64,000 nucleotides of DNA, from contig JALHRQ010000008.1 of NCBI GenBank assembly GCA_022841375.1, positions 62,001-126,000 on the forward strand, read 5' to 3'. Below, one piece after another: positions 4,634 to 18,302 of this stretch. The stretch is from Burkholderiales bacterium. Lineage in GTDB: Bacteria > Pseudomonadota > Gammaproteobacteria > Burkholderiales > SG8-41. Positions within the stretch are counted from its first letter, which is position 1, and every line of letters begins with the position of its first letter. The notes below the pieces were generated by a model. The model was not told where the DNA came from and searched no databases. It saw nothing but the letters and a program-made list of their open reading frames with translations. The position numbers were made by a program, and so were the translations under genes.

Positions 4634-5392
4634 TTAACGCGCAGCACTTTTCCACAGGTCGCTCAGGTATTCGTGGTCGCTGGTGTTGATCCAGCTGTAG
4701 CGGTATTCCACCGGTGTGTCGTTGTAGGTGTAGGCGACGCGGCGGATCTGCAGCACCGGCTGGTCGGTGCGCATGCCGAGGATGGCGGCGATGTCGTTAG
4801 ACGGGTGCGCTGCCGACAAGCGTTCGCTGATGCGCACAACATTGACGCCATAACGCGCCTGATACAGGCCGTAGATGGTGCCTTCACGGTTGCGGAAGGT
4901 GGATTCATCAAGATGCGAAAACCGTTCGGTCGGCACCGTGATGTCGTCCAGCACCACCGGCTTGCCGGCGAGTTTCAGCAGATTACGCACCCGCGCCACG
5001 CGACTGCCGCGGATCAGCCCGAACTGGGTTTCATCATTGGCGTCAGCGCGTTCCTTGCGAAAATCCAGCAGTTCCGACACCGGAAACTCGCGGCTGCCGT
5101 TCTTGCCGACGACATGAAAAAAATAGAACAGTGTACGGTCTTCGGTGTGGGTGGCGACAAAAGTGCCGCGACCCTGCTGGCGCACCAGGATGCGGCCGGC
5201 GACCAGTTCGTCAATCGCGCGGCGGATGGTGCCGATCGACACGTTGAACTGGCGTGCCAGCCGCGATTCGCTGGGAATGGCTTCGCCCGGCTTCCATTCC
5301 CCGGCGGCCAAGGCGCGCGTAATCCGCCATTGCACTTCGCGGTACAGCGGTGCGGCGGCCAGGTTGTTGGCGATAGGGGCAGGGGTGTCCAT
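4634..5392 (-). CDS. GntR-family (HutC/UTRA-type) transcriptional regulator
   Basis: The first 80 residues form a GntR winged helix: LYREVQWRITRALAAGEWKPGEAIPSESRLARQ, then FNVSIGTIRRAIDELVAGR and LVRQQGRGTFVA. The remainder (about 95-245) resembles the UTRA ligand-binding domain, including PVLQIRRVAYTYNDTPVEYRYSW near the end. HutC-type members usually repress a divergent catabolic operon until a small metabolite binds. It is transcribed away from the sulfolactate-lyase-like operon, and a palindrome sits between them at 5435-5452. It is therefore the probable local repressor; the inducer is unknown. Length (252) is normal. Confidence 0.9.
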   Translation of the reverse strand: MDTPAPIANNLAAAPLYREVQWRITRALAAGEWKPGEAIPSESRLARQFNVSIGTIRRAIDELVAGRILVRQQGRGTFVATHTEDRTLFYFFHVVGKNGSREFPVSELLDFRKERADANDETQFGLIRGSRVARVRNLLKLAGKPVVLDDITVPTERFSHLDESTFRNREGTIYGLYQARYGVNVVRISERLSAAHPSNDIAAILGMRTDQPVLQIRRVAYTYNDTPVEYRYSWINTSDHEYLSDLWKSAAR

Positions 5393-5539: not shown

Positions 5540-5821
5540 ATGATTCACTTGTTGGTACACGACAAAAAGGACACGGTCGGCGTGGCCGTCATCGAAGGCA
5601 TCAAGGCTGGTCAGGAGATGGTCGGCTGGGTCATGGAAGACGATTCGACGATCAAGGTCAAGGCGCTCAACGACATCCCGATCGGGCACAAAGCCGCGCT
5701 GCGCGAGATCAAGAAGGGCGACACCATCATCAAATACGGTTTTGACATCGGCAAGGCCGTGGCTGACATCAAGCTCGGCGAGCACGCACACGTGCACAAC
5801 ATCAAAACCAAGCGTTGGTAA
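5540..5821 (+). CDS. suyA: UxaA-family small subunit, SuyA-like (sulfolactate sulfo-lyase alpha)
   Basis: This 93-residue protein is a single SAF-type domain. It begins IHLLVHDKKDTVGVAV and ends with the basic stretch HVHNIKTKRW. UxaA-family dehydratases and lyases are either one long chain (altronate, galactarate dehydratase) or split into small SAF and large catalytic subunits. The split form with about 93 plus 389 residues matches SuyA/SuyB, which cleaves (2R)-3-sulfolactate to pyruvate and sulfite. The next gene is the large subunit, 60 bp downstream. The start is backed by a strong AGGAGG. A split dehydratase for a sugar acid cannot be excluded. Confidence 0.65.
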   Translation: MIHLLVHDKKDTVGVAVIEGIKAGQEMVGWVMEDDSTIKVKALNDIPIGHKAALREIKKGDTIIKYGFDIGKAVADIKLGEHAHVHNIKTKRW

Positions 5822-5881
5822 GCCGCACCTGCCAACCCAGCACGAACCCGAACCCGATTCCGATCCAAAACGGAGAAACAA

Positions 5882-7051
5882 ATGATCGACAGCAAAACCA
5901 CATTCATGGGCTATCGCCGCGAGAACGGTCGCGTTGGTGTCCGCAACCACGTCCTGATCCTGCCGGTAGACGATCTGTCCAATGCCGCCGCTGAAGCCGT
6001 GGCCAACAACATCAAGGGCGCGATTGCGATTCCGCATCCCTACGGCCGCCTGCAGTTCGGCGCCGACCTGGACCTGCATTTCCGCACCATCATCGGCGCG
6101 GGCGCCAACCCCAACGTTGCCGCCGTGGTGGTGATCTGCATTGAGGAAGGCTGGGCCAAAAAAGTGGTCGATGGCATCGCCAAGACCGGCAAACCTGTCA
6201 CCGGCTTCGGCATCGAACTGCACGGCGACCACGACACCATCATGCGTGCGTCCAAAGTGGCCAAGGAATATGTGCAATGGGCATCCGAGCTGCAGCGCGT
6301 CGAATGTCCGATCAGCGATCTTTGGGTATCGACCAAGTGCGGCGAGTCCGATACGACTTCGGGTTGTGGTTCCAACCCGACCGTCGGCAGCGCCTTCGAC
6401 AAGCTCGAGCCGCTGGGTGTGACCATGTGCTTCGGTGAAACCACCGAAATCACCGGCGGCGAGAATATTGTTGCCGACCGTTGCGCAACCCCGGAAGTGC
6501 GCAAGGAATTCATGCGCATGTTTGATCGTTACCAGGAAATTGTCGAGAAAAACAAAACCAGCGACCTCTCCGATTCGCAGCCGACCAAGGGCAACATTGC
6601 CGGCGGCCTGACCACGATTGAGGAAAAAGCGCTGGGCAACATCCAGAAAATCGGCAAGAAGTGCAAAGTCATCGGCGTGCTCGACAAGGCTGAAGAGCCG
6701 ACCAAGCCCGGCTTGTGGTTCATGGATTCTTCCTCCGCCGCAGCGGAAATGGTCACGCTGTGCGCCGCATCCGGTTATGTGGTGCACCTGTTCCCGACCG
6801 GCCAGGGCAATGTCATCGGCAATCCGATCGTGCCGGTGGTGAAACTAACGGCGAATCCGCGCACCGTGCGTACCATGAGCGAACACGTCGACTACGATTG
6901 CTCGGGCCTGCTGCAGCGCGAGAAAAACCTTGACCAGACCGGTGATGAACTGATCGAAGTGATGCTGCGCACCTGCAACGGCCGGTTGACCGCCGCTGAA
7001 GCGCTGGGCCATCGCGAGTTTGTGCTGACCCGCCTCTACGAAAGCGCTTAA
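5882..7051 (+). CDS. suyB: UxaA-family large subunit, SuyB-like (sulfolactate sulfo-lyase beta)
   Basis: This 389-residue catalytic subunit contains the family landmarks [19 protein letters not shown] at the N-terminus, [18 protein letters not shown] in the middle, [12 protein letters not shown], and [17 protein letters not shown] near the C-terminus. Conserved cysteines in the KCGESD/SGCG region and elsewhere are expected to hold a metal or Fe-S centre. Length and pairing with a 93-residue SAF subunit match (2R)-sulfolactate sulfo-lyase, a cytoplasmic enzyme releasing sulfite. The Ldh2-type dehydrogenase at the end of the same run is another sulfolactate-pathway type. Family membership is firm; the exact substrate is inferred. 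Confidence 0.7.
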
Positions 7052-7161
7052 ACCGACAGGCCGCACGGATGCCGTAGTCCGGCTGCGACGTGATGTCCTG
7101 CGTAGCGACGGTCTGCGGATTCCGGGCGGCCGTTGTTTTTTCTGAACGGAAGAATCTGTCA

Positions 7162-8817
7162 ATGACATCTATGCGCGGTGCCGACATCCTGGCGCGCTCG
7201 CTCGCCGCCGCCGGATTGACGCGTGTGTTTTCACTGTCCGGCAATCACATCATGCCGGTGTATGACGCGGCGATCGAGGCGAAGCTGGAGATCACTCACG
7301 TGCGTTACGAAGGTGCGGCCGTGCACATGGCCGATGCCTGGGGGCGCCTGACCGGCGAACCGGGCATTGCGATGCTGACCGGAGGTCCCGGTCATGCCAA
7401 TGGCGTCGGCGCCTTGTACACCGCGCTCGCTTCAGAGTCGCCGATGGTGCTGTTGTCCGGGCATGCGCCCCTGAATGAACTGGGCCGTGGCTCATTCCAG
7501 GAGATGCGCCAGGCTGAAATTGCTGCGCCACTGGTGAAGGCGTCGTGGACTGCATCCAGTGCCGAATCGCTGGGGGCAGACATTGCCAAGGCCTGCCGTA
7601 TTGCGCGTTCCGGCCGCCCGGGTCCGGTGCATCTGAGTTTGCCGTTTGATGCGCTGGAAGCAAAAGTTGCCGACGGCGAAAGCGCGATGGCGCGTGCGGC
7701 GGATTTTCTGCCGCCACAACAAGGTCTGCAGGACAAGATGCTGACAGCGCTAACGGCGCTGCTGCAGTCGGCATCGCGGCCGTTGATCGTGCTCGGACCG
7801 GCAATGTCGCATGCGCCGGTGGCCGCCCTGACAGGGGAACTGGCCAAGGCCGCGGGTGTGCCGGCGGTTTGCATGGAAAGCCCGCGCGGCGTCAATGATC
7901 CTGCAATGGGTGCGTTTGCCGGTGTACTGGCGAAAGCCGATCTGGTGGTGTTGCTCGGCAAGCAGCCCGATTTCACGCTGCGCTTCGGCAAGGCCCCCGC
8001 GCTGGCTGCCGAATGCCGGTTTGCGGTCATCGATCCCGAAGCCGAGGTGCTGCGGCGTGCGGTGAAGAATCTGGGGGAATCGCGCGTGGTCTTGTCCGCC
8101 CAGGCGGATAGCGCTGCGACCGTGCGTGCGCTGATCAAAGCTGGCCAGCACAAGGCGGCGCCGGCGTGGTTTGATGAAGTAACCGCCGCAGTTGCATTCC
8201 GTCCGGCAGCATGGCGTGACATCAACAGCGGCGACGCCGGTCCGGTACATCCGGTCGAACTCGGCCGTGCCGTGCAGGAAGTGCTCAATGCTTCCCCGGA
8301 GGCGGTTTTTGTCGCTGACGGCGGCGAAATCGGTCAGTGGGCGCAGGCCTGCGTCAATGCGCCGACCCGCATCATTAACGGCCCCGGCGGTTCGATCGGC
8401 AGTGGCGTGCCGTTTGCGTTTGCCGCGCGAATGGCGCGGCCCCGGGCGCCGGTGGTTGCGGTCATGGGCGACGGCGCCTTCGGTTTTCATCTGATGGAGT
8501 TCGACACGGCGGCACGTGCCGGTGTGCCGATGGTCGTCGTTGTCGGCAACGATTCGTGCTGGAACGCCGAACACCAGATCCAACTGCGCACTTACGGCAA
8601 GGAACGCGCGCATGGCTGCGAGCTCGCCGGCGGTACGCGTTATGATCTGGCGGTGGCGGCGCTGGGTGGCCACGGTGAACTGGTGACCAAGGTTGCGGAT
8701 CTGCGGCCGGCATTGCAGCGGGCCATTGCCAGCGGCAAACCCGCCTGCGTCAATGTGATGATTCAGCGTCTTGCCGCGCCGACGGTCACCGCCGGCACAC
8801 CGGGCGCGGCGCACTAG
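7162..8817 (+). CDS. Thiamine-diphosphate-dependent enzyme (acetolactate synthase/2-keto-acid decarboxylase family)
   Basis: From the ATG at 7162 (GGAAGAA upstream) the protein has 551 residues and three domains: a PYR domain with the catalytic Glu in HVRYEGAAVHMADAWGR, a central domain (about 200-330), and a PP domain with the ThDP/Mg motif GDGAFGF ending at GNDSCWN. The family includes acetolactate synthase, oxalyl-CoA decarboxylase and benzoylformate decarboxylase. Sulfoacetaldehyde acetyltransferase and sulfopyruvate decarboxylase are related. This chain is a single full-length polypeptide, unlike two-subunit ComDE, and its N-terminus does not look like Xsc. In context it could act on the 2-keto acid made by the Ldh2-type enzyme. 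The substrate is unknown. Confidence 0.8.
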   Translation: MTSMRGADILARSLAAAGLTRVFSLSGNHIMPVYDAAIEAKLEITHVRYEGAAVHMADAWGRLTGEPGIAMLTGGPGHANGVGALYTALASESPMVLLSGHAPLNELGRGSFQEMRQAEIAAPLVKASWTASSAESLGADIAKACRIARSGRPGPVHLSLPFDALEAKVADGESAMARAADFLPPQQGLQDKMLTALTALLQSASRPLIVLGPAMSHAPVAALTGELAKAAGVPAVCMESPRGVNDPAMGAFAGVLAKADLVVLLGKQPDFTLRFGKAPALAAECRFAVIDPEAEVLRRAVKNLGESRVVLSAQADSAATVRALIKAGQHKAAPAWFDEVTAAVAFRPAAWRDINSGDAGPVHPVELGRAVQEVLNASPEAVFVADGGEIGQWAQACVNAPTRIINGPGGSIGSGVPFAFAARMARPRAPVVAVMGDGAFGFHLMEFDTAARAGVPMVVVVGNDSCWNAEHQIQLRTYGKERAHGCELAGGTRYDLAVAALGGHGELVTKVADLRPALQRAIASGKPACVNVMIQRLAAPTVTAGTPGAAH

Positions 8818-8841
8818 AGCGTCAGTCAAAGGAACAAGCGT

Positions 8842-9555
8842 ATGGAAACCCTGCAGGTCAGAATCTGGCGCGGCAAGGAAAACGGCGGCTTTCAGGAATT
8901 CGATGTGCCGCGACAGGAAAGCCAGACCGTGCTCGATGTGGTCACCTACGTGCAGCGCAAATGCGACCCGACGCTGTCTTACCGTTTTGCCTGCCGCGTC
9001 GGCGTCTGCGGTTCGTGCGCGATGACGGTCAACGGCGTATCGCGCTGGACCTGCCGCACGCATGTTTCGAAAGTCGCCGAAGACAACAAGGTCGAAATCG
9101 CGCCGCTGCGCAATCTGCCGGTGGTCAAGGACCTGGTCACCGACATGAGCGAGTTCTTCGACAAATGGGCAAGGGCGCGCGGCAGTTTTCAGGGCAGCAC
9201 CACACGCAAGGACGGTTTTGCGCAGGTGTCGCCGGAGTCCAAGGAACGCAAGCGCGTCGACGCCGGCATCGAATGCATCGGCTGCGGCGTGTGTTACAGC
9301 GCCTGCGACGTGGTGACCTGGAACAAGGATTATCTGGGACCGGCAGCGTTGAACCGCGCCTGGACGCTGGTCAACGATGTGCGTGATACCGGACGCGCAG
9401 AGCGTCTCGCGGCGGTGGCCGGTGACGCCGGATGTCTTGCCTGCCATACCCATCTGAACTGTACTGAACGTTGTCCCAAGGGCCTGTCGCCGACCGCCGG
9501 CATTGCCGGGCTGAAGCGCGCCGTATTGGCGGCAACCTTGTCCGGGGAAATATAA
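8842..9555 (+). CDS. Succinate dehydrogenase/fumarate reductase-like iron-sulfur subunit
   Basis: This 237-residue SdhB/FrdB homologue has all three cluster motifs: the plant-type [2Fe-2S] at Cys51, Cys56, Cys59 and Cys71 (CRVGVCGSC), a ferredoxin-type [4Fe-4S] at Cys145-Cys155 (CIGCGVCYSAC), and the third set at Cys198, Cys201, Cys207 and Cys211 (CLACHTHLNCTERCPKG). It would pass electrons from a flavoprotein to a membrane quinone site. The partners are SdhC/D-like genes directly downstream and an SdhA-like gene 5 kb further on. Identity to the housekeeping SdhB is clearly limited, and the setting is catabolic, so this is probably a dedicated complex. Confidence 0.88.
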   Translation: METLQVRIWRGKENGGFQEFDVPRQESQTVLDVVTYVQRKCDPTLSYRFACRVGVCGSCAMTVNGVSRWTCRTHVSKVAEDNKVEIAPLRNLPVVKDLVTDMSEFFDKWARARGSFQGSTTRKDGFAQVSPESKERKRVDAGIECIGCGVCYSACDVVTWNKDYLGPAALNRAWTLVNDVRDTGRAERLAAVAGDAGCLACHTHLNCTERCPKGLSPTAGIAGLKRAVLAATLSGEI

Positions 9556-9560
9556 AAATG

Positions 9561-9579
9561 TTTAAAAACAATAAGTTAT
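9561..9579 (-). promoter_or_regulatory. Dispersed AT-rich 19-bp motif, copy 2
   Basis: On the minus strand this reads ATAACTTATTGTTTTTAAA, matching the shared consensus. It fills the 52-bp gap between the SdhB-like stop and the SdhC-like start (9608), inside an otherwise compact operon. Confidence 0.6.
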
Positions 9580-9607
9580 ATGTAATTCCCAGGGGAGGCG
9601 GCTGTCT

Positions 9608-9958
9608 ATGAGCCGGCGCAGCGAAGTTTTGCTGTGGGGCGCGCAACGCATCAGCGCGATGGTGCTGGCGGTGTGCGTGATCGTGCATCTGATGACGATG
9701 ATCTATGCGGTGCGCAGCGGACTGAGCGGCTCTGAGATCCTCGGCCGCACGCAGGGCAACATCGGCTGGTTTGCGTTTTATGCGGTGTTTATCGCCGCTG
9801 TTTCGGTGCATGCACCGATTGGTCTGCGTACCATACTGGCCGAAACATTCAACTGGCGCGGTCGCGGCGCCGATGTATTTGCGGCGGTCGTCGGCCTGAG
9901 CCTGGCGATGTGGGGGCTGCGCGCGGTAATGGCCGTATTCGGCGGGTCGCCGGCATGA
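9608..9958 (+). CDS. SdhC/SdhD-like membrane anchor subunit
   Basis: This 116-residue protein has three hydrophobic helices: LLWGAQRISAMVLAVCVIVHLMTMI, a second around WFAFYAVFIAAVSVHAPIG, and a third near VGLSLAMWGLRAVMAVF. The QRISAMVL segment and the histidines in VIVHL and VHAP match the quinone/haem-binding pattern of succinate dehydrogenase anchors. It lies between the Fe-S subunit and a second anchor gene, whose ATG overlaps this stop (ATGA). An AGGGGAGG site precedes the start. It is probably part of a membrane complex feeding electrons to quinone. Confidence 0.75.
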   Translation: MSRRSEVLLWGAQRISAMVLAVCVIVHLMTMIYAVRSGLSGSEILGRTQGNIGWFAFYAVFIAAVSVHAPIGLRTILAETFNWRGRGADVFAAVVGLSLAMWGLRAVMAVFGGSPA

Positions 9959-10302
9959 AGAACGATTACCGTGCCCGCAATCATCCGGCGTACTGGGCGT
10001 TTATTGTCCATCGCGTATCGGGCCTGCTGCTGACTTTTTTCCTGCCGCTGCATTTCTGGGCGCTGGGCCAGGCTTTTCATGGCGCCGCCGGACTCGACCG
10101 TTTTCTCGAGTGGACGCACAACCCGCTGGTGAAGTTTGCCGAAACCGGTCTGGTGCTGCTGCTGGCAGCGCACATGGCCGGCGGCGTGCGCCTGCTGCTG
10201 ATCGAATTTCTCGATTGGCGTGAATGGCAGAAAACACTGCTCGCCGTTGCAGCAGGCGTCTCACTGGTGGTGGTTCTCGCCTTTCTATTGAATCTCGTCT
10301 AA
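9955..10302 (+). CDS. Second SdhC/SdhD-like membrane anchor subunit
   Basis: This is a 115-residue protein with three transmembrane segments. The first carries the diagnostic AFIVHRVSGLLLTFFLPLHF, resembling the HRxSG quinone-site motif and haem-ligand histidines of SdhC. A second histidine-bearing helix (LLLAAHMAGGVRLLLIEF) follows, then a C-terminal helix. The start ATG at 9955 overlaps the preceding stop by four bases, so the two anchors are almost certainly co-translated. With 8842-9555 and the flavoprotein at 14504 they complete a four-subunit succinate-dehydrogenase-type complex. Confidence 0.78.
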   Translation: MKNDYRARNHPAYWAFIVHRVSGLLLTFFLPLHFWALGQAFHGAAGLDRFLEWTHNPLVKFAETGLVLLLAAHMAGGVRLLLIEFLDWREWQKTLLAVAAGVSLVVVLAFLLNLV

Positions 10303-10324
10303 TGGCCCATACCGTGCGGAGTCG

Positions 10325-11734
10325 ATGCGTATGAAAAAACAAAAGAAGCCGAATATTCTGCTGATCCTGGTCGATGATCTGCGTTTCGACGAATTCGGCG
10401 CCGGCGGCCATCCGTACATGAAAACGCCGCACATCGACCGCATCGCCCGCGAAGGGGTGAAGTTTGATCGTGCGTTTCACACTACGTCGATCTGCTCGCC
10501 GAACCGGGCATCGATACTGACCGGACAATATGCCAGCCGCCACGGCATCATCGACAACGTCGCCCGCGACCTGGCCAGCCATCGTCTGCCCAATTACCAC
10601 CTTGAACTGCAGCGTCTCGGTTACGAAACCGCGCATATCGGCAAATGGCATATGGGCAACGACGGCAAGCCGCGCCCGGGTTACGACTTCTGGGTGGCTT
10701 ATGACGGCCACGGCAACCTGTACGATCCGAAGCTCAACGAGAACGGCAAATACGTACAGCACAAGGGCTATGTCACCGACATCATGAACACCATGGCGGT
10801 GGACTGGATCAAGAGCAAAAGCCGGCGCAAGGGCAAAAATGCCAACAAGCCGTGGTCGCTGTGGTTTGCGCACAAGGCGGTGCATCCCGATGCCGAACAG
10901 GCCGCTGACGGCTCATTCAGAATGGACGGATATCGCCCGGCCAAGCGCCACGAGGATCTGTACAAGGGCTGCGTGTTCCCGAAAAAACCGAACATGCAAA
11001 AACCCACCGAGTTTCTCAAGCACAAGCCGGTGTGGGCTGAAGCCGTGGAACTGCGCAAGACCGAAGCCTCGAAAATCATGCACGACGCCATCCACTCCGG
11101 CAAGCAGGAGGAGATTCGCTTGCGCGCGGCAATGATGGCGGCGGTGGACGAAGGTATCGGCATGCTGTTCAAAACGCTGGAGGAAACCGGCGAACTCGAC
11201 AACACGGTGATCCTGTTTCTCGGCGACAACGGCTATTTCTTCGGTGAGCACGGTCTTGGACCGGAGCGCCGTTTTCCGTACGAAGAGGGTATCCGCGCCC
11301 CCTTGCTGATCCGCTGGCCAAAATCGATCAAGCCGGGTTCCCAAGTGCGCGATCTGGTGATTCTGCAGGACATCGCGCCAACACTGCTTGAAATCGCTGG
11401 CGGTAAACCCGGCGCACATATCCAGGGGCGTTCGCTGTTGCCGGTGATCCGCGGCAAACGCGCCGGCTGGCGCAAGTCATTTCTGGTCGAATACTGGGCG
11501 GAGAATGCCTATCCGTGGCTGGTCGGCATGAGTTTCAGGGCGATTCGTACAAGCCGTTACAAATACATCCACTGGGTCAATCGCGCACGCAACGGCGAAC
11601 TCGACGAGTTGTATGACCTTGAAAAAGATCCTTACGAACTGATCAATGTGGCGAAAAAACCGGCTTACGCGGCGGTGCGCAAACAAATGACCCGGGATCT
11701 GCGGGTTCTGGCCGCGGAGGCGCTGGGACTTTAA
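10325..11734 (+). CDS. Cysteine-type sulfatase (alkaline phosphatase superfamily)
   Basis: The 469-residue protein opens with the metal-binding NILLILVDDLR and has the type I sulfatase signature CSPNRASILTG, with Cys57 the residue that would become formylglycine. Further landmarks are GKWHMGN and DNGYFFGEHGLGPERR. No signal peptide is visible, so it is likely cytoplasmic. Type I sulfatases hydrolyse sulfate esters, though some family members hydrolyse phosphonate or phosphate esters. It lies 22 bp after the second anchor gene in a catabolic run, implying the pathway substrate or an intermediate is esterified, or that the gene is a passenger. No formylglycine-generating enzyme gene is seen in the window. 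Confidence 0.85.
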   Translation: MRMKKQKKPNILLILVDDLRFDEFGAGGHPYMKTPHIDRIAREGVKFDRAFHTTSICSPNRASILTGQYASRHGIIDNVARDLASHRLPNYHLELQRLGYETAHIGKWHMGNDGKPRPGYDFWVAYDGHGNLYDPKLNENGKYVQHKGYVTDIMNTMAVDWIKSKSRRKGKNANKPWSLWFAHKAVHPDAEQAADGSFRMDGYRPAKRHEDLYKGCVFPKKPNMQKPTEFLKHKPVWAEAVELRKTEASKIMHDAIHSGKQEEIRLRAAMMAAVDEGIGMLFKTLEETGELDNTVILFLGDNGYFFGEHGLGPERRFPYEEGIRAPLLIRWPKSIKPGSQVRDLVILQDIAPTLLEIAGGKPGAHIQGRSLLPVIRGKRAGWRKSFLVEYWAENAYPWLVGMSFRAIRTSRYKYIHWVNRARNGELDELYDLEKDPYELINVAKKPAYAAVRKQMTRDLRVLAAEALGL

Positions 11735-11840
11735 CGGAAACAGTACATCGCTTGCCGCCCCCCTGGGGCGTCAGGTATCGTAAACCACAGGTTCCAGGTT
11801 CGTAGATCATCCAACAACAACACCAGACCGTGAGGAGAAA

Positions 11841-12806
11841 ATGATGAGCAAAGCAGGATTGATCGCCGCGGCATGCATGCTCGCCGCATCCACCGCATTT
11901 GCTGCGGATATTTATCCCATCCGACCGGTGCGCATTATTGTGCCGTTCGCGCCCGGTGGGGCCACCGATATCGTCGCGCGACTGGTCGGACAGAAGCTCA
12001 ATGAAGGCTGGGGACAGCCCGTAGTCATTGACAACCGTGCCGGCGCCGGCGGCAACATCGGCGGCGATATCGCGGCCAAATCGAACCCCGACGGTTACAC
12101 GCTGTTCATGACCTCCGGTTCCATCGTCACCGCCAACCAGCACATGTACGCCAAGATGCCGTTCAGCCCTGAAAAGGATCTGGTCGCGGTGACCAACGTT
12201 GCCAGCGGACCACAGGCCATTGTCGTCAATCCGAGCAATCCGGCGAAAACCCTGAAGGACTTCATCGCGCTCGCCAAGGCCAAGCCGAAGTCGATGACTT
12301 TCGGTTCAGCCGGCGTCGGCACCCAGACGCATCTGGCGGCGGAGAATTTCATTTACGCGTCCGGCATTGATGTCACCCACGTGCCGTACAAGGGCGAAGG
12401 CCCGGCAGTCAGCGATCTCGTCGGCGGGCAGATACAGTTCGTCACGCCCAACCTGTCGGCAGCCATTTCATTCGTCAACACCGGCAAGCTGCGTGCCCTG
12501 GCGGTGACCAGCAAGGAGCGTTCGGCACAACTGCCGAATGTGCCGGCGGTCGCCGAAACGCTGCCCGGCTTTGAAAACCTCGGCTGGTTCGGATTCATGG
12601 TTCCGACCGGTACGCCGAAAGCGGTAATCGCCAAGGTGCACGCCGACACGGTGAAGGCGCTGGGCGGCGCAGACCTGCGCAAACGCATCACCGAAATCGG
12701 TATGAACACCGTCGGCAATACGCCGGAAGAGTTCAGCCGTGACATCAAGGCGGAGTCGGGGCGCTGGGCCAAGATCATCAAGGAACGCAATCTGCAGGTG
12801 AAATAA
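11841..12806 (+). CDS. Tripartite tricarboxylate transporter substrate-binding protein (TctC/Bug family)
   Basis: This is a 321-residue periplasmic binding protein with a signal peptide (residues 1-22, ending AFAAD). Bug-family landmarks are YPIRPVRIIVPFAPGGATDIVAR, VVIDNRAGAGGNIGGD, and THVPYKGEGPAVSDLVGGQIQF. The family captures carboxylates and related anions for a TctAB permease; none is encoded in the window. Another copy lies at 16301 in the same run. TTT-type transporters are known to serve sulfolactate uptake in other bacteria, which fits the neighbouring SuyAB-like genes but does not prove it. Confidence 0.9.
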   Translation: MMSKAGLIAAACMLAASTAFAADIYPIRPVRIIVPFAPGGATDIVARLVGQKLNEGWGQPVVIDNRAGAGGNIGGDIAAKSNPDGYTLFMTSGSIVTANQHMYAKMPFSPEKDLVAVTNVASGPQAIVVNPSNPAKTLKDFIALAKAKPKSMTFGSAGVGTQTHLAAENFIYASGIDVTHVPYKGEGPAVSDLVGGQIQFVTPNLSAAISFVNTGKLRALAVTSKERSAQLPNVPAVAETLPGFENLGWFGFMVPTGTPKAVIAKVHADTVKALGGADLRKRITEIGMNTVGNTPEEFSRDIKAESGRWAKIIKERNLQVK

Positions 12807-12891
12807 AGCTTCGCAACACCGGCGGCCGGTCTGCGCGGGCGCAACGCCCCGCAGCGGCTCCCGGGTTTTTCATTCAAGTGAAGGTGCATTC

Positions 12892-13767
12892 GTGAAGGTC
12901 GATCTCAAACAGGTGGAAGAGTCGTGCAAGGAGCTGTACATCCGTGCGCTCAAGATGCTGCCGCCGGACATCAAGCAGGGTTTTCAGCGGCTCGATCGCA
13001 CTGAAACCAATGCCACCGGCAAAGCCATCCTCGGCACCATGATCCGCAACATCACTGTAGCGGAGGACAATACCAACCTGTTGTGCCAGGACACCGGTAT
13101 TCCGATCTACAACGTGGTCATCGGCAGCGGTGTCGAAGTGGACGGCCACGCACTGAAGCAGGCAATCGTCAGCGGCTGCACCCGGGCGACCCAGGAGCAT
13201 CCGCTGCGATCCTCGGTGGTGCATCCGACTACGCGCAAAAACCAGCACACCTCGGGCGGCCGCCATGTGCCGGTGATCAACATCGATTTTTCGTCGCTGG
13301 CCGAGACGCTGTCGATCGAGATGATTCCCAAGGGATCAGGCTCGGAAAACAATTCCTGGCTGAAAATGGCGATACCCGCCGACGGCATCGACGCGATCAA
13401 GACTTTTGTCATCGACTGTGTACTTGAGGCGGGCGGCAAGAGTTGCCCGCCGGTGATCGTCGGCGTCGGTGTCGGCGGTACGGCTGACCTTTGCGTGCAT
13501 CTGTCGAAAGTTGCAGCGACGCGGCCGCTGGGCAGCCAGTGTGAGGATCCAGAAGGCGCGAAACTTGAAGCCGAACTCAGCGCCGTGGTCAACAAGCTCG
13601 GTGTCGGCGCGCAGGGTCTGGGCGGCGATTCCACCGCGTTTGCGGTGCATGTCGAAACCGCAGCCACGCACATCACGATGAATCCGGTAGCCGTGAACAT
13701 GCAGTGCCATTCGGCGCGGCGTGCGCGCGCCACATTCACGCCGCAAGGCCTCAGCTACGGCTACTGA
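12892..13767 (+). CDS. Class I fumarase / tartrate dehydratase-like alpha subunit
   Basis: This 291-residue GTG-start protein matches the N-terminal catalytic part of class I Fe-S hydro-lyases. The three expected [4Fe-4S] ligands are visible: Cys65 in NLLCQDTGIPIYN, Cys185 in KSCPPVIVGVGVGG and Cys272 in MQCHSARRARA. GSGSENNSWLKM is the substrate region. The two-gene form resembles TtdA/TtdB or archaeal-type two-subunit fumarase. It would add water reversibly across a double bond of a fumarate-like diacid in the cytoplasm, using an oxygen-sensitive cluster. The beta subunit starts 15 bp downstream. Substrate is open: fumarate, mesaconate, tartrate or a sulfonate analogue. Confidence 0.87.
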   Translation: MKVDLKQVEESCKELYIRALKMLPPDIKQGFQRLDRTETNATGKAILGTMIRNITVAEDNTNLLCQDTGIPIYNVVIGSGVEVDGHALKQAIVSGCTRATQEHPLRSSVVHPTTRKNQHTSGGRHVPVINIDFSSLAETLSIEMIPKGSGSENNSWLKMAIPADGIDAIKTFVIDCVLEAGGKSCPPVIVGVGVGGTADLCVHLSKVAATRPLGSQCEDPEGAKLEAELSAVVNKLGVGAQGLGGDSTAFAVHVETAATHITMNPVAVNMQCHSARRARATFTPQGLSYGY

Positions 13768-13782
13768 ACGACGGATAAAGAC

Positions 13783-14394
13783 ATGGCGCATTACGAACTC
13801 AACATGCCGGTGACGGAAGAGCAGATCCGCAAACTGCGCATCAACGACACCGTGACGCTGCACCAGACGCTGTATGGCATCCGTGATGCCACGCAGATCC
13901 ACATGTTTGACCACGGCCGCAAGACCCGTTTCGACCTGAACGGACATGCGGTGGTGCACACCGCTCCCAACGTCAAATGGGTCGGCGAAACCCAGGCGCA
14001 TCCCTCGGGTTATGCGCCGATCTGCATCGGCACCACCACCAGCGCGCGCATGGAGCGTTTCACCCGCCCGCTGATGGAGCAGTATGGCGTGCGCATCATC
14101 ATCGGCAAGGGCGGACTGTTCGCCGCCTCAGCCAAGGCCTTCGCTGACCTGGGCGGCATCTACCTGGCGATCATCGGCGGCACCGCAGCGCTGGAGACCA
14201 CCTGGATCGAACAAATCGAGGAAGTTGACCTCGACGATCTCAATCCCGAATCGCTATGGAAATTCCGCATCAAGGGTTTCGGCCCGCTGTTGGTGGCAAT
14301 GGATTCCCACGGCGGCAGCCTTTATACGGCGGTCAATGCCGCGGCCAAAGATCAGCGCGCCGGCGTGCTCGCCGCGCTGGGTGTTAAAACCTGA
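13783..14394 (+). CDS. Class I fumarase / tartrate dehydratase-like beta subunit
   Basis: This 203-residue partner corresponds to the C-terminal domain of class I fumarases, or TtdB (about 200 residues). Visible motifs are GTTTSARMERFTRPLMEQYG, IIIGKGGLFAASAKAF, and GGIYLAIIGGTAALET, with a final FRIKGFGPLLVAMDSHGG. It supplies part of the substrate pocket. Its start is 15 bp after the alpha stop, so the two are co-translated. Downstream, an imperfect inverted repeat separates it from the SdhA-like gene. Confidence 0.87.
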   Translation: MAHYELNMPVTEEQIRKLRINDTVTLHQTLYGIRDATQIHMFDHGRKTRFDLNGHAVVHTAPNVKWVGETQAHPSGYAPICIGTTTSARMERFTRPLMEQYGVRIIIGKGGLFAASAKAFADLGGIYLAIIGGTAALETTWIEQIEEVDLDDLNPESLWKFRIKGFGPLLVAMDSHGGSLYTAVNAAAKDQRAGVLAALGVKT

Positions 14395-14409
14395 ACTTCA
14401 AACCCGTTT

Positions 14410-14490
14410 GCCACAGAGGACACAGAGATCACAGAGGAAACCCGGGGTATGACCTGAAGTTCTCTGTGCCCTCTGGGAACTCTGTGGCTA
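14410..14490. repeat. Imperfect inverted repeat built from CCACAGAGG / CTCTGTGG units
   Basis: The left arm (14410-14440) has CCACAGAGG, ACACAGAG and TCACAGAGG in series. The right arm (14460-14490) carries CTCTGTG, CCTCTGGG and CTCTGTGGC, so the arms fold into a long imperfect hairpin around a 19-bp centre. Similar CACAGAG-rich intergenic elements recur in many proteobacterial genomes, which points to a dispersed (MITE/REP-like) repeat. Here it lies inside an operon, 15 bp after the beta-subunit stop. Confidence 0.7.
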
Positions 14491-14503
14491 AGTTTTTGAC
14501 TTT

Positions 14504-16219
14504 ATGAAAACCATTAAAACCGACATTCTCATTCTCGGCTCCGGCGGCGCCGGCCTGTTTGCGGCGCTGCATGCGCATCAGCACAACCCCGACCTGTCCA
14601 TTACCGTCGCGGTCAAGGGCCTGCTCGGCAAAAGCGGTTGTACGCGCATGGTGCAGGGCGGCTACAACGTTGCGCTGGCCGAAGGCGATTCGGTCGAGCG
14701 CCATTTCATGGACACTATCGAAGGCGGCAAGTGGCTGCCCGACCAGGACTTGGCGTGGACGCTTGTGGAAAAAGCGATCGAGCGCATCCATGAACTGGAA
14801 AACGAACTCGGTTGTTTTTTCGACCGCAATCCCGACGGCACCATCCATCAGAAGGCTTTTGCCGGACAGACTTTCGACCGCACCGTGCACAAGGGTGACC
14901 TGACCGGTATTGAAATCATCAACCGCCTTGCCGAGCAGGTGTGGGCGCGCGGCATCAACCGCCTTGAGGAACACCGTGCCGTCGAGTTCATCCGCACCAA
15001 GGCCGGTGATGCCATTTCCGGCGTGCTGATGATCGACATGCGCAGCGGTGAGTTCACCTTCGTGCAGGCGCAGGCGGTGCTGTTGGCCACCGGCGGCGGG
15101 CCGACGATGTACAAGTATCACACGCCCTCCGGCGACAAGAGCTGCGATGGCATGGCGATGGCGTTGCGCGCCGGGCTGCAGCTGCGCGACATGGAAATGG
15201 TGCAGTTCCACCCGACCGGCCTGATTGCCGGCATGGACACGCGCATCACCGGCACCATCATCGAAGAAGGCCTGCGCGGCGCCGGCGGTTACCTGCTCAA
15301 CGGCGACGGCGAGCGCTTCATGCACAAATACGATCCGCGCAACGAACGTGCCACCCGCGACATCGTCAGCCGTGGCATGTTCGAGGAAATGCGCGCCGGC
15401 CGTGTCGGCCCGCGCGGCGGGTTGTACATCACCATGCGCCATCTCGATCCGGTGATGGTGCGCAAGGAATTCAAGGGCATGGTCGAGCGCTGTGCCGACT
15501 GCGGCTTTGATCTGGTCGGCGGTCTCGCCGATGTGGTGCCGACCGCGCATTACATGATGGGCGGGGTGGTATTCAAGACCGATTGCAGCACCGACCTGCA
15601 CGGCCTGTTTGTTGCCGGCGAAGACTCCGGCGGCGTGCATGGTGCCAACCGGCTCGGCGGCAACGGCGTGGCCAACTCCACGGTGTTCGGTGGCATCGCC
15701 GGGGACGTCATGCCCGGCTGGGTCAAGGCCAACGGCGAATTCCGCGCGCCGGACCAGGAAGCGATTGCTGCAGCGGTGGCCCTCTGTCAGGCGCCGTTGT
15801 CGCGCAAGGGCGGCGATATTAACGTCATTCGCGAGCAACTCTACAACGTGATGTGGGATGACGTCGGCATTGTGCGCGATGCCGTTTCGTTGACCCGCGC
15901 CGAAACTCAGCTTGATGAACTCGATGCGCAGCTGGATGCCCTTGGCATCAACGGCTCGACGCTCGCGTTCAACCTGACATGGCACGACTGGCTCAATCTG
16001 AAAAACCTGGTGATGGTGTCGAAATCGATCCGCTCTGCGGCGATGGCCCGCGAAGACTCGCGCGGCGCGCACTTCCGAGCCGATCATCCGGAGGTGCGAG
16101 ACCTTGAAAATTCGCGGTATACCTGCGTCGGCTGGCAGGACGGCCGGTTCAGCATCGAAACGAGGCCGGTTAAGTTCACCCGCGTCAAGCCGGGCGAGTC
16201 TTTGTTGACGACAGCCTGA
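14504..16219 (+). CDS. SdhA/FrdA-like flavoprotein lacking the covalent-FAD histidine
   Basis: This 571-residue protein is a fumarate-reductase-type flavoprotein: FAD-binding LGSGGAGLFAAL at 11-22, QFHPTG with His236, the RD pair at Arg285, PTAHYMMGG with His349, and GANRLGGN with Arg383. These match the substrate-binding and proton-transfer residues of SdhA, so a dianionic succinate-like substrate is expected. The histidine that covalently holds FAD in SdhA/FrdA aligns with Cys46 (SGCTRMVQGG), so FAD is probably not linked in the usual way. It most likely pairs with the B, C and D subunits encoded at 8842-10302, despite the unusual gene separation. Confidence 0.87.
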   Translation: MKTIKTDILILGSGGAGLFAALHAHQHNPDLSITVAVKGLLGKSGCTRMVQGGYNVALAEGDSVERHFMDTIEGGKWLPDQDLAWTLVEKAIERIHELENELGCFFDRNPDGTIHQKAFAGQTFDRTVHKGDLTGIEIINRLAEQVWARGINRLEEHRAVEFIRTKAGDAISGVLMIDMRSGEFTFVQAQAVLLATGGGPTMYKYHTPSGDKSCDGMAMALRAGLQLRDMEMVQFHPTGLIAGMDTRITGTIIEEGLRGAGGYLLNGDGERFMHKYDPRNERATRDIVSRGMFEEMRAGRVGPRGGLYITMRHLDPVMVRKEFKGMVERCADCGFDLVGGLADVVPTAHYMMGGVVFKTDCSTDLHGLFVAGEDSGGVHGANRLGGNGVANSTVFGGIAGDVMPGWVKANGEFRAPDQEAIAAAVALCQAPLSRKGGDINVIREQLYNVMWDDVGIVRDAVSLTRAETQLDELDAQLDALGINGSTLAFNLTWHDWLNLKNLVMVSKSIRSAAMAREDSRGAHFRADHPEVRDLENSRYTCVGWQDGRFSIETRPVKFTRVKPGESLLTTA

Positions 16220-16300
16220 TCGGTATCGGCTGTTTGATTTTTCCGGTCCGGCGGGCGAGACTGCGGGCCGGCATTACAACATCAGGCTTGAGGAGACACC

Positions 16301-17284
16301 ATGGATCGTTCCGTTGCATTGAGCATTGCCCTTGTTGGAGCAACCATTGGCGGTGTGTTTGTTGCCGCCAACCCGGTTGCAGCCCAGGAATTCCCGACCC
16401 GCAGCATCCGCATGGTGCTGCCGTTCCCGGCCGGCGGCGGCAGCGATCTGGTCGCGCGCATCATCGCGCAGAAGTATTCGCAGCAATTGGGCCAGCAGGT
16501 GATTGTGGATAACCGTGCCGGCGCCAGCGGCAACATCGCCGCTGACATTGTGGCCAAGGCGCCGGGCGATGGTTACACGGTGTTTTTTGCCAATTCCTCG
16601 ATCTCGATCAGCCCCGCGATCTACAAAAAACTGAGCTTCGACCCGGTCCGGGATTTCGCACCGATTTCGATGGCTTCATCGTACCCCTTCGTACTGGTTG
16701 CACATCCGGCGCTGCCGGTGAAGACGGTCAAGGATCTGGTCGCTCTCGCCAAGGGCAAGCCCAATACGCTGGACTATTCCTCGGCCGGCACCGGCACCAT
16801 GTCGCATATGGCGATGGAAATGCTGCGTGTCAAAACCGGTACCCGCATTACCCATCTGCCGTACAAGGGCGCAGCCCCGGCAACGGTGGCTTTGCTGACC
16901 GGTGAAGCGCAGGTGGCTTTTGTGGTGATGCCGGTGGCTGCGCCGCACATCGCCAGCAATCGTCTGCGCGGACTGGGTGTGGCTGACAAGGTCCGTTCTG
17001 CTGTGGCGCCGAACGTGCCGACGATGATTGAATCCGGCGTGGCCGATCACGTGGCTGTGCAGTGGAACGGCCTGCTGGTGCCGGCGAAAACACCGCAGTC
17101 CATTCAGGACAAGCTCTACAAGGAATGGGTCGCCGCAGTCAAAGCACCGGAAGTCGTGCAGCGCATCCGTGCCGAGGGCGCGGAACCCAGCGGCAACACA
17201 CCGGCGGAATTTACGGCGTTTTTCAGGGCTGAGGCTGCAAAGTGGGCGGATGTGGCCAAACAATCCGGCACCACGGTGGACTGA
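16301..17284 (+). CDS. TctC/Bug-family substrate-binding protein
   Basis: This 327-residue periplasmic protein has a signal peptide ending VAAQEF, followed by FPTRSIRMVLPFPAGGGSDLVAR, VIVDNRAGASGNIAAD and THLPYKGAAPATVALLTGEAQ. It is the second such protein in the run, so two ligands or one redundant receptor are possible. A strong GAGGAGA site precedes the ATG. The Ldh2-type gene begins 5 bp after its stop, so they are co-transcribed. Confidence 0.9.
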   Translation: MDRSVALSIALVGATIGGVFVAANPVAAQEFPTRSIRMVLPFPAGGGSDLVARIIAQKYSQQLGQQVIVDNRAGASGNIAADIVAKAPGDGYTVFFANSSISISPAIYKKLSFDPVRDFAPISMASSYPFVLVAHPALPVKTVKDLVALAKGKPNTLDYSSAGTGTMSHMAMEMLRVKTGTRITHLPYKGAAPATVALLTGEAQVAFVVMPVAAPHIASNRLRGLGVADKVRSAVAPNVPTMIESGVADHVAVQWNGLLVPAKTPQSIQDKLYKEWVAAVKAPEVVQRIRAEGAEPSGNTPAEFTAFFRAEAAKWADVAKQSGTTVD

Positions 17285-17288
17285 TCCG

Positions 17289-18302
17289 ATGCCGTTGCTG
17301 TCGATTGCGGAATTGACCGAACTCGCCGCGCGCGCGCTGAAGCGTGCGGGCGCGTCGAAGGCCATGGCTGATGCCACATCGCGGGCGCTGGTGGCGGCGG
17401 AAGCCGAGGGATTGTCCGGGCACGGCTTGTCCCGCGTTGCGCTGTATGCACAGCATTTGCGTGAGGGTCGTGCCAACGGCAAGGCCAAACCCAAAGCCAT
17501 TCGCAAGAATGGCGCCACCTGCCTGATCGACGCCGGTGGTGGACTGGCATTTCCCGCAGCGGCACTGGCGGTCAATGAGGCGATCAAACGCGCCCAAAAA
17601 TATGGCGTGGCGTTTGCCGGCATCACCAACAGCCATCATTTCGGTGCCGCCGCCTATCACCTCGCGGCGATTGCCGATGCCGGCATGACCGGCATCGCGC
17701 TGACCAATTCACCGTCGGCGATCAATGCCTGGGGTGGCAGCAAGGCGTTTTTCGGCACCAATCCGATTGCGGCGATTTTTCCGCGCAAGAATGCACAACC
17801 GATTGTGGTTGATCTGTCGCTGACCGAAGTCACGCGCGGCAAGATCATGCTCTACGCCAAGGAAAACAAACCGATTCCCCCGGGCTGGGCGGTGGATCGC
17901 GACGGCAATCCGACAACCAGCGCACAAGCGGCGCTGACCGGCAGTCTGACGGCTATTGGTGGTGTCAAAGGTACCGCGCTGGCGCTGATGGTGGAAGCCC
18001 TGTGTGTGGCGTTGACTGGCGCCGCACTGAGCTGCGAAAACGATTCGTATTTCGAGCCCGGCAACAAGCCGCGCATCGGCCACGCGCTGATCGTCATCAA
18101 TCCCGATGCGCTGGCCGGTGCCGAAACCTATTACTCCCGCATCGAAGACATGGTCGGGCACATGCTGGGTGATGCCGGCGTGCGTCTACCGGGCGCGCGG
18201 CGTCATCAAGCCGTCGCTAAAGCGCAAGCCGAGGGCATCACCCTGGCGGATGCACTGCATCAGGAGTTGCTGAAACTCGCCGGACGCAGTCGCAAGAAGT
18301 GA
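17289..18302 (+). CDS. Ldh2/ComC-type NAD(P)-dependent 2-hydroxyacid dehydrogenase
   Basis: The ATG at 17289 gives 337 residues, normal for the malate/L-lactate/sulfolactate dehydrogenase family, which is unrelated to Rossmann-fold lactate dehydrogenases. Characteristic segments are EAEGLSGHGLSR near residue 40, VAFAGITNSHHFGAAAYH with the catalytic His pair, ALTNSP, and FFGTNPIAAIFPR. ComC and SlcC/SlcD-type enzymes interconvert sulfolactate and sulfopyruvate, and ComC belongs to this family. Placement in the same run as SuyAB-like subunits favours that role. Malate or another 2-hydroxyacid remains possible. It closes the operon; no hairpin terminator follows. Confidence 0.82.
   Translation: MPLLSIAELTELAARALKRAGASKAMADATSRALVAAEAEGLSGHGLSRVALYAQHLREGRANGKAKPKAIRKNGATCLIDAGGGLAFPAAALAVNEAIKRAQKYGVAFAGITNSHHFGAAAYHLAAIADAGMTGIALTNSPSAINAWGGSKAFFGTNPIAAIFPRKNAQPIVVDLSLTEVTRGKIMLYAKENKPIPPGWAVDRDGNPTTSAQAALTGSLTAIGGVKGTALALMVEALCVALTGAALSCENDSYFEPGNKPRIGHALIVINPDALAGAETYYSRIEDMVGHMLGDAGVRLPGARRHQAVAKAQAEGITLADALHQELLKLAGRSRKK

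Follow-up and report, generated by a model that had tools for sequence, protein, structure and literature searches.

Degradation of sulfonates through the sulfo-lyase SuyAB, which is reported to cleave (R)-sulfolactate (passages in PMC12890257 and PMC12421959), is known from Paracoccus pantotrophus and Cupriavidus pinatubonensis, and an hpsRNOUP-suyAB cluster has been described for the latter (passage in PMC11382572). A thesis cited in a passage of PMC11489063 has Roseovarius nubinhibens degrading homotaurine via 3-sulfopropanoate, sulfoacrylate, and sulfolactate. According to passages of the same 2024 source, 3-sulfopropanoate is made by Enterococcus gilvus from 2,3-dihydroxypropane-1-sulfonate (DHPS) and by other bacteria from homotaurine, and its bacterial degradation is unreported apart from that thesis. 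In Paracoccus wurundjeri growing on sulfofucose, nine proteins of a "fumarate and tartrate" cluster, which also contains a TauE homolog, were upregulated, and the authors tentatively tied this cluster to the Krebs cycle (passage in PMC12421959). Here we describe an operon of a Burkholderiales bacterium (GenBank assembly GCA_022841375.1) in which suyAB-like genes stand together with genes for a succinate dehydrogenase (SDH)-like complex and a fumarase-like pair. It lies in the window, the 64,000-nucleotide stretch of contig JALHRQ010000008.1 (positions 62,001 to 126,000) that was analysed, of which bases up to about 24000 were examined. This is a real, widely conserved sulfonate operon, and on balance we favor the view that it encodes a complete C3 sulfonate pathway, most likely for 3-sulfopropanoate.

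The operon and its SuyAB sulfo-lyase

The operon consists of 13 open genes, all on the + strand (5540..18302), with intergenic gaps of -4 to about 110 bp. Pfam and NCBIfam searches confirmed the one-strand arrangement and all 13 gene families named in the original prediction, which had overlooked a divergent GntR/UTRA regulator gene (5392-4634, minus strand). In the list, HN-2 refers to a plasmid of C. pinatubonensis HN-2, TPP to thiamine pyrophosphate, and ORF to open reading frame.

4634..5392, - strand: GntR/UTRA-family regulator (Pfam GntR and UTRA), divergent from suyA
5540..5821, + strand: SuyA-like small subunit of (R)-sulfolactate sulfo-lyase, 93 aa, 62% identity to its HN-2 counterpart
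5882..7051, + strand: SuyB-like large subunit of (R)-sulfolactate sulfo-lyase (PF04295 and PF20629), 82% identity to HN-2 SuyB
7162..8817, + strand: TPP enzyme of the 2-hydroxyacyl-CoA lyase / oxalyl-CoA decarboxylase / acetolactate synthase group, by family matches; the ORF opens at 7090, with the ATG at 7162 the likelier start
8842..9555, + strand: SdhB-like iron-sulfur subunit (Fer2_3, 4Fe-4S dicluster; TIGR00384, 199.6 bits, cut-off 88)
9608..9958, + strand: SdhD-like membrane anchor (PF01127)
9955..10302, + strand: SdhC-like cytochrome b subunit (PF01127; TIGR02970, 60.3 bits, cut-off 52.3); the ORF opens at 9910, and the gene overlaps that of SdhD by 4 bp
10325..11734, + strand: S1-type sulfatase with a CSPNR motif (PF00884 and PF16347)
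11841..12806, + strand: TctC-type solute-binding protein 1 (PF03401)
12892..13767, + strand: class I fumarase-type hydratase alpha, proposed sulfoacrylate hydratase (PF05681)
13783..14394, + strand: class I fumarase-type hydratase beta (PF05683)
14504..16219, + strand: SdhA-like flavoprotein, proposed 3-sulfopropanoate dehydrogenase (PF00890 and PF02910)
16301..17284, + strand: TctC-type solute-binding protein 2 (PF03401)
17289..18302, + strand: Ldh2/ComC-type dehydrogenase, probable sulfolactate dehydrogenase (PF02615; 17289 is the likely start)

The HN-2 genes to which suyA and suyB were compared lie beside hpsN and hpsO, a layout resembling the hpsRNOUP-suyAB cluster (passage in PMC11382572). 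SuyA itself gave no Pfam match and a weak NCBIfam match to galactarate dehydratase. In a SuyB tree of 42 rows, the window protein fell into a 16-row set with HN-2 SuyB (support 100/97), outside the UxaA-like rows of a small reference set, and the position of only two haloarchaeal SuyB-like proteins was unsettled. UxaA-like rows (n = 8) have four Cys columns; in the 53 SuyB rows aligned, three of these hold Leu/Ile, Arg, or a gap, and the fourth (Cys153) is kept in 53/53. Loss of these three columns agrees with the published criterion that SuyB is without the Cys residues conserved in UxaA/GarD dehydratases (passage in PMC6336799). Tree and Cys pattern together rule out a UxaA/GarD sugar-acid dehydratase, one of the two identities that the original prediction had named as refuting it. 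Orthology strongly supports SuyAB as a sulfo-lyase predicted to split (R)-sulfolactate into pyruvate and sulfite.

Recurrence of the gene set

Relatives were collected by scanning genome contigs for the SdhA-like protein, and the best 80 of at least 588 were kept. The 13 genes occur in identical order in 4 of these 80 (L045, L047, L048, and L052), and the core of the set recurs widely, so the operon is not a chance assembly. Two variants are distinguished: V1 has the SDH-like set with the window-type fumarase pair, and V2 has the same SDH-like complex with another hydratase. Neighborhoods were counted in stretches of at least 11 kb, comprising 59 V1, 16 V2, 7 with no recognised fumarase, and 40 controls, the last being 20-kb stretches at regular coordinates in three genomes that carry V1 themselves. 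suyB was found in 40/59 V1, 1/16 V2, 0/7 no-fumarase, and 0/40 control stretches. In the same order, the counts were 35/59, 1/16, 0/7, and 0/40 for comC; 18/59, 1/16, 0/7, and 0/40 for slcC; and 13/59, 2/16, 0/7, and 0/40 for a sulfonate-type ABC ATPase. For sulfite and sulfate handling they were 18/59, 6/16, 2/7, and 0/40 (TauE); 4/59, 5/16, 0/7, and 1/40 (sulfate exporter); 6/59, 3/16, 0/7, and 1/40 (sulfite oxidase); and 25/59, 7/16, 2/7, and 2/40 for at least one of these three. Of the 19 V1 genomes without suyB in the stretch, 17 have an ortholog elsewhere (68-95% identity), bringing the V1 loci with suyB in the stretch or elsewhere in the genome to 57/59.

The association also holds at the genome level: among 369 genomes of the class, the SDH-like protein is present in 9, a near-full SuyB ortholog in 13, and both in 6 (Fisher 4e-8, or 8e-7 without the operon's own genome, relatedness being uncorrected). 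Linkage of SDH-like genes to suyAB recurs in Alpha-, Beta-, and Gammaproteobacteria, Rhodococcus, and haloarchaea. The annotated record of a Methylobacterium radiotolerans plasmid shows V1 with suyAB. Separate versions occur in Rhodococcus jostii RHA1, where a 25-kb region holds genes for SuyB and for SDH-like and fumarase-like proteins, and on two haloarchaeal plasmids, which encode SuyAB, TauE, SDH-like A and B, and a lyase of the ArgH superfamily, with no fumarase pair annotated there. The lyase gene lies between the SDH-like genes and suyAB (L133:13203-14705; L134:13284-14786) and is a possible non-orthologous replacement of the fumarase pair. As a sign of a sulfoacrylate enzyme, its match to XcbC (256.9 bits, cut-off 575) is weak, since XcbC is matched by the ordinary ArgH of the genome as well (198.2 bits); against argH the lyase itself scores 323.3 bits, above the cut-off of 279.5.

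The nearest SdhA relatives, at up to 95% identity, come from metagenome-assembled genomes (MAGs) titled Burkholderiales, Betaproteobacteria or, doubtfully, Bordetella. Four loci titled Bordetella parapertussis (L045, L055, L056, and L057; SdhA-like 83-95% identical) appear to be MAGs of environmental origin with misassigned titles.

The SDH-like complex and the fumarase-like pair

Family matches identify counterparts of SdhA, SdhB, SdhC, and SdhD in the operon. The SdhA-like protein is 34% identical to E. coli SdhA, and its best NCBIfam match is fumarate reductase TfrA (501.8 bits, below the cut-off of 718). In an alignment of 102 SdhA-like rows, which takes in the window and five V2 rows, H242, E255, R286, H354, R399, and F119 (E. 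coli SdhA numbering) are invariant, and these we take to represent the catalytic set. The substrate-binding Thr254 is Glu in 102/102 rows. The flavin-linking His is Cys in all 96 fetched members of at least 450 aa, which read GCTRMVQGG, and the next-but-one Val after that position is Arg in 96/96 (from motif counts and a separate alignment; a MAFFT gap was misplaced at positions 44-47). The genome keeps an ordinary SdhA as well, which was read separately and has SHTVAAQGG at the flavin-linking site. With the catalytic residues kept and both the flavin-linking His and Thr254 changed, the enzyme resembles a functional complex II-family dehydrogenase that acts on a different substrate. We class it as SDH-like, and not as a succinate dehydrogenase, because both of these residues are absent.

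The hydratase pair belongs to the class I fumarase family, with the alpha subunit matching TIGR00722 at 280.6 bits (cut-off 100.65) and the beta subunit matching PF05683 at 103 bits (cut-off 22.2) and TIGR00723 at 135.5 bits, under its cut-off of 145.15. The FumA tree has nine reference rows (two TtdA and seven other class I fumarases), shows FumA on a very long branch, and joins V2 to TtdA weakly (86/66); within these limits it gives a V1 clade of 26 rows including the window (99/99) and a V2 clade of 16 rows (100/99), both apart from TtdA and the other references. The tartrate dehydratase identity considered in the original prediction is ruled out by this tree, in which the pair falls apart from both TtdA rows. 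The FumB loop reads GTTTS in 71/71 V1 rows and TATAS in 16/16 V2 rows, the latter having lost the conserved second Thr; among seven references, Pro is second in 7/7 and the loop reads GPTTS in 4/7. In 71/71 V1 rows, two loop residues that the seven references conserve, Gly61 and Pro84 (window FumB numbering), are replaced. The operon's own alpha subunit is the single class I fumarase alpha of the genome, which also encodes six Lyase_1 proteins.

A proposed 3-sulfopropanoate route and its alternatives

3-Sulfopropanoate is the sulfonate analogue of succinate. In the route that we propose, a sulfonate would be taken up, with possible help from the TctC-type binding proteins, and the SDH-like complex, as a membrane-anchored complex II paralogue, would oxidise 3-sulfopropanoate to 3-sulfoacrylate and deliver the electrons to the quinone pool. 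The two-subunit hydratase would then add water onto C2 of sulfoacrylate, as fumarase does on fumarate, and yield (R)-sulfolactate. The arrangement found in L-malate becomes (R) in sulfolactate under Cahn-Ingold-Prelog naming; a fumarase-like hydration would thus give the very isomer that SuyAB is reported to cleave, with no need for a racemase, and SuyAB would release pyruvate and sulfite. Two further steps are weakly supported: ComC, and SlcC in relatives, might interconvert sulfolactate and sulfopyruvate or act on the other sulfolactate isomer, and the TPP enzyme may act as a sulfopyruvate decarboxylase whose product, sulfoacetaldehyde, would supply the true Xsc encoded outside the operon (893 bits, cut-off 676.4). 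No Xsc match reached the reporting threshold in any of 14 control genomes. The first two reactions are inferred from family chemistry and gene context.

The SuyB tree, synteny, co-occurrence, and recurrent sulfite exporters lend strong support to the sulfonate reading of the original prediction, with 3-sulfopropanoate as substrate and the two middle reactions keeping the conditional standing they had there; of the hypotheses considered, that of the prediction is the best, and gene context supports it well. The prediction knew of no described pathway with this exact gene set; the intermediates had been proposed in the thesis (passage in PMC11489063), and no gene assignment for them was recognised in the literature searched, which lay mostly outside subscription papers. 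Passages on the bacterial coenzyme M pathway contain nothing on sulfoacrylate.

The TPP enzyme occurs at 40% identity or more in 23/59 V1 and 3/16 V2 stretches; it is not Xsc itself (161.6 bits, cut-off 676.4) and is perhaps a sulfopyruvate decarboxylase, but because it accompanies V2 too, its part in making sulfoacetaldehyde for Xsc is a guess. The sulfatase, found in 11/59 V1 and 0/16 V2 stretches, has no signal peptide by eye, is apparently cytoplasmic, and would be accessory. TctC genes are unspecific (40/59 V1, 7/16 V2, 1/7 no-fumarase, and 7/40 control stretches). For ComC the best NCBIfam match is L-sulfolactate dehydrogenase (NF040650; 202.8 bits, below the cut-off of 500), which comes second among its PDB matches, after a piperideine-carboxylate reductase / ureidoglycolate dehydrogenase entry. 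The divergent GntR/UTRA protein is probably the operon regulator, with homologs divergent from suyA and less than 900 bp away in 28/51 fetched suyA-bearing stretches. The operon is flanked upstream by genes for RimM, TrmD, and ribosomal protein L19 and downstream by RecQ. Between the L19 and GntR genes lies a 577-aa ORF (2885-4618) that has no Pfam match and has relatives at 33-35% identity in L061 and L085.

Several observations weigh against a 3-sulfopropanoate pathway. The TPP enzyme and the sulfatase are unexplained by it, as is the Thr-to-Glu change of SdhA, for which the original scheme did not account either: Glu254 sets a negative charge beside the expected dianion site, and a dianionic substrate does not explain it. 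E. coli FrdA without its flavin-linking His reportedly loses succinate oxidation, and the SdhA-like family lacks that His. FumA exceeds the NCBIfam fumarate hydratase cut-off (296.7 vs 276), so that plain fumarase activity of the pair is possible. The operon contains no enzyme that makes 3-sulfopropanoate and none of the genome's eight TauE-family proteins (TauE-family proteins occur in 14/14 control genomes, so mere presence in a genome says little), and a search of the genome found no PF00174 sulfite oxidase. Among relatives, TauE, a sulfate exporter, or a sulfite oxidase was present in only 25/59 V1 stretches, two of the 19 V1 genomes checked have no SuyB anywhere (L077 and L082), and the best 80 of at least 588 loci lean towards the window. 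The P. wurundjeri growth was on sulfofucose and not on 3-sulfopropanoate (passage in PMC12421959). Substrate, activity, and growth are all predictions.

Four other explanations were considered. It seems unlikely that the set degrades a different sulfonate, such as sulfosuccinate (through sulfofumarate and a sulfomalate), from which either SuyAB or the hydratase would free sulfite. SDH-like and fumarase-like enzymes would suit a C4 diacid bearing a sulfonate, and the pocket changes in SdhA and FumB show only that the substrate is probably not succinate or fumarate, but the SuyB is inseparable from that of the C3 (DHPS/sulfolactate) cluster, and slcC and comC recur. We give little credence to the idea that the SDH-like and fumarase-like proteins are tricarboxylic acid (TCA) cycle isoenzymes replacing sulfite-inhibited housekeeping enzymes during sulfonate growth, even though sulfite reacts with flavins, the gene sets accompany sulfite release, and FumA lies above the fumarate hydratase cut-off. 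The P. wurundjeri authors' suggestion of a Krebs-cycle link would fit such a role (passage in PMC12421959), whereas the identity of only 34% to E. coli SdhA, the invariant change at Thr254, and the FumB loop altered in 71/71 V1 rows argue against it.

That these genes serve a non-sulfonate diacid, and lie near suyAB through lineage-specific clustering only, is likewise improbable: some relatives do stand near aconitase X or MmgE/PrpD genes with no suyAB in the stretch, but the linkage recurs from Proteobacteria of three classes to Rhodococcus and haloarchaea, and co-occurrence holds at the genome level. Least probable would be a reverse flow from sulfolactate through sulfoacrylate to 3-sulfopropanoate as a reductive or detoxifying branch. 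The TfrA match, although below cut-off, and the reported sparing of fumarate reduction when E. coli FrdA loses its flavin His would accord with reduction, but the SdhC/D anchors, the sulfite oxidases of some relatives, and Xsc fit aerobic use, and SuyAB already removes sulfolactate.

A doubtful extension of the 3-sulfopropanoate route is that a sulfonate-specific complex-II-type enzyme opens a widespread pathway with two endings, V1 hydrating C2 to feed SuyAB and V2 having a hydratase that acts at the sulfonate-bearing carbon, giving malonate semialdehyde and sulfite without a sulfo-lyase. The V2 loci are L127, L128, L129, L130, L131, L132, L135, L137, L138, L158-L162, L079, L114, and L124. 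suyB is missing from 15 of the 16 V2 stretches; in nine V2 genomes searched, a near-full SuyB ortholog was found elsewhere in four (G093, G214, G388, and G389), a fragment in G391, and none in G265, G361, G295, and G390 (7, 1, and 4, respectively, for the 12 genomes searched in addition to the 19 V1 ones). The idea that V2 always bypasses SuyAB is therefore not borne out. A full malonate-semialdehyde-type dehydrogenase gene (TIGR01722) is present in 3/16 V2 and 0/59 V1 stretches:

L131:18409-19896, (methyl)malonate-semialdehyde dehydrogenase, CoA-acylating, directly behind fumB
L137:9094-10569 and L138:10681-12156, (methyl)malonate-semialdehyde dehydrogenase, 1.4-3 kb before sdhB (L138 by tblastn only)

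L137 and L138 are related Cupriavidus plasmids. A 75-aa fragment of the gene was found in a fourth V2 stretch (L130), and a gene of this type lies near the edge of L070, which has no fumarase genes. Such genes beside the V2 set hint at a malonate semialdehyde intermediate; as a whole-genome marker of V2 they are uninformative, being present in 11/11 genomes. Xsc passes its cut-off in 9/11 other genomes with an SDH-like set (7/8 V2, 2/3 V1), G390 being the only genome without both SuyB and Xsc, and its frequency in V2 genomes suggests that V2 may feed Xsc.

V2 neighborhoods vary. On a Paracoccus versutus plasmid, one 40-kb region holds V2 together with suyAB, an hpsN-like gene, and a sulfite oxidase. 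In Pseudomonas sp. MPC6 and Pseudorhizobium NT-26, V2 is accompanied by TauE and a sulfate exporter, and the stretch lacks suyAB; Sulfitobacter sp. S190 and Paracoccus seriniphilus have little or no sulfonate-type neighbors. In Sulfitobacter THAF37 an aminotransferase and a TPP enzyme adjoin the V2 set (L128:5214-9915), as would be expected if a sulfonated 2-oxo acid (e.g., 2-oxo-4-sulfobutanoate) were decarboxylated, and a gene annotated as 3-sulfinopropanoyl-CoA desulfinase lies 9 kb beyond fumB. Aconitase X genes stand beside SDH-like sets with no suyAB in the stretch in L112 (3763-7676), which also has DUF3604, and L129 (10093-11738), and L088 shares this gene layout, with a putative aconitase X. 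Such neighbors suggest that substrates may vary within the SDH-like family, which would also count against a single 3-sulfopropanoate function.

If the 3-sulfopropanoate reading is true, the complex II family gains a sulfonate-oxidising member. Its likeness to complex II lies in four subunits, catalytic residues, and membrane anchors, and its difference in the missing flavin-linking His, the Thr254-to-Glu change, and the low identity to E. coli SdhA. The V1 hydratase shares its family with class I fumarases and TtdAB and keeps the second Thr and the Arg of the beta loop, but forms its own clade with Gly61 and Pro84 replaced. Annotated plasmid records label such genes as succinate dehydrogenase, FAD-binding protein, and fumarate hydratase, and the pathway can therefore hide behind TCA-cycle names. 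The P. wurundjeri cluster resembles the P. versutus V2 cluster, a likeness by description only (passage in PMC12421959). The R. nubinhibens homotaurine route has the same proposed intermediates as our scheme, with no genes named in the PMC11489063 passage, and the operon offers a concrete gene set for 3-sulfopropanoate breakdown, and relatives of this set are present among Proteobacteria, in one Rhodococcus, and in two haloarchaea. Compared with the SuyAB pathway of P. pantotrophus and C. pinatubonensis, the operon shares orthologous SuyA and SuyB and a ComC-type gene, and its relatives share SlcC and, in some cases, TauE and sulfite oxidase; it differs in that entry would be via SDH-like and fumarase-like enzymes and not via hpsN or cysteate transamination. 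We regard it as a new entry branch to the known SuyAB pathway, to which V2 may add a second ending.

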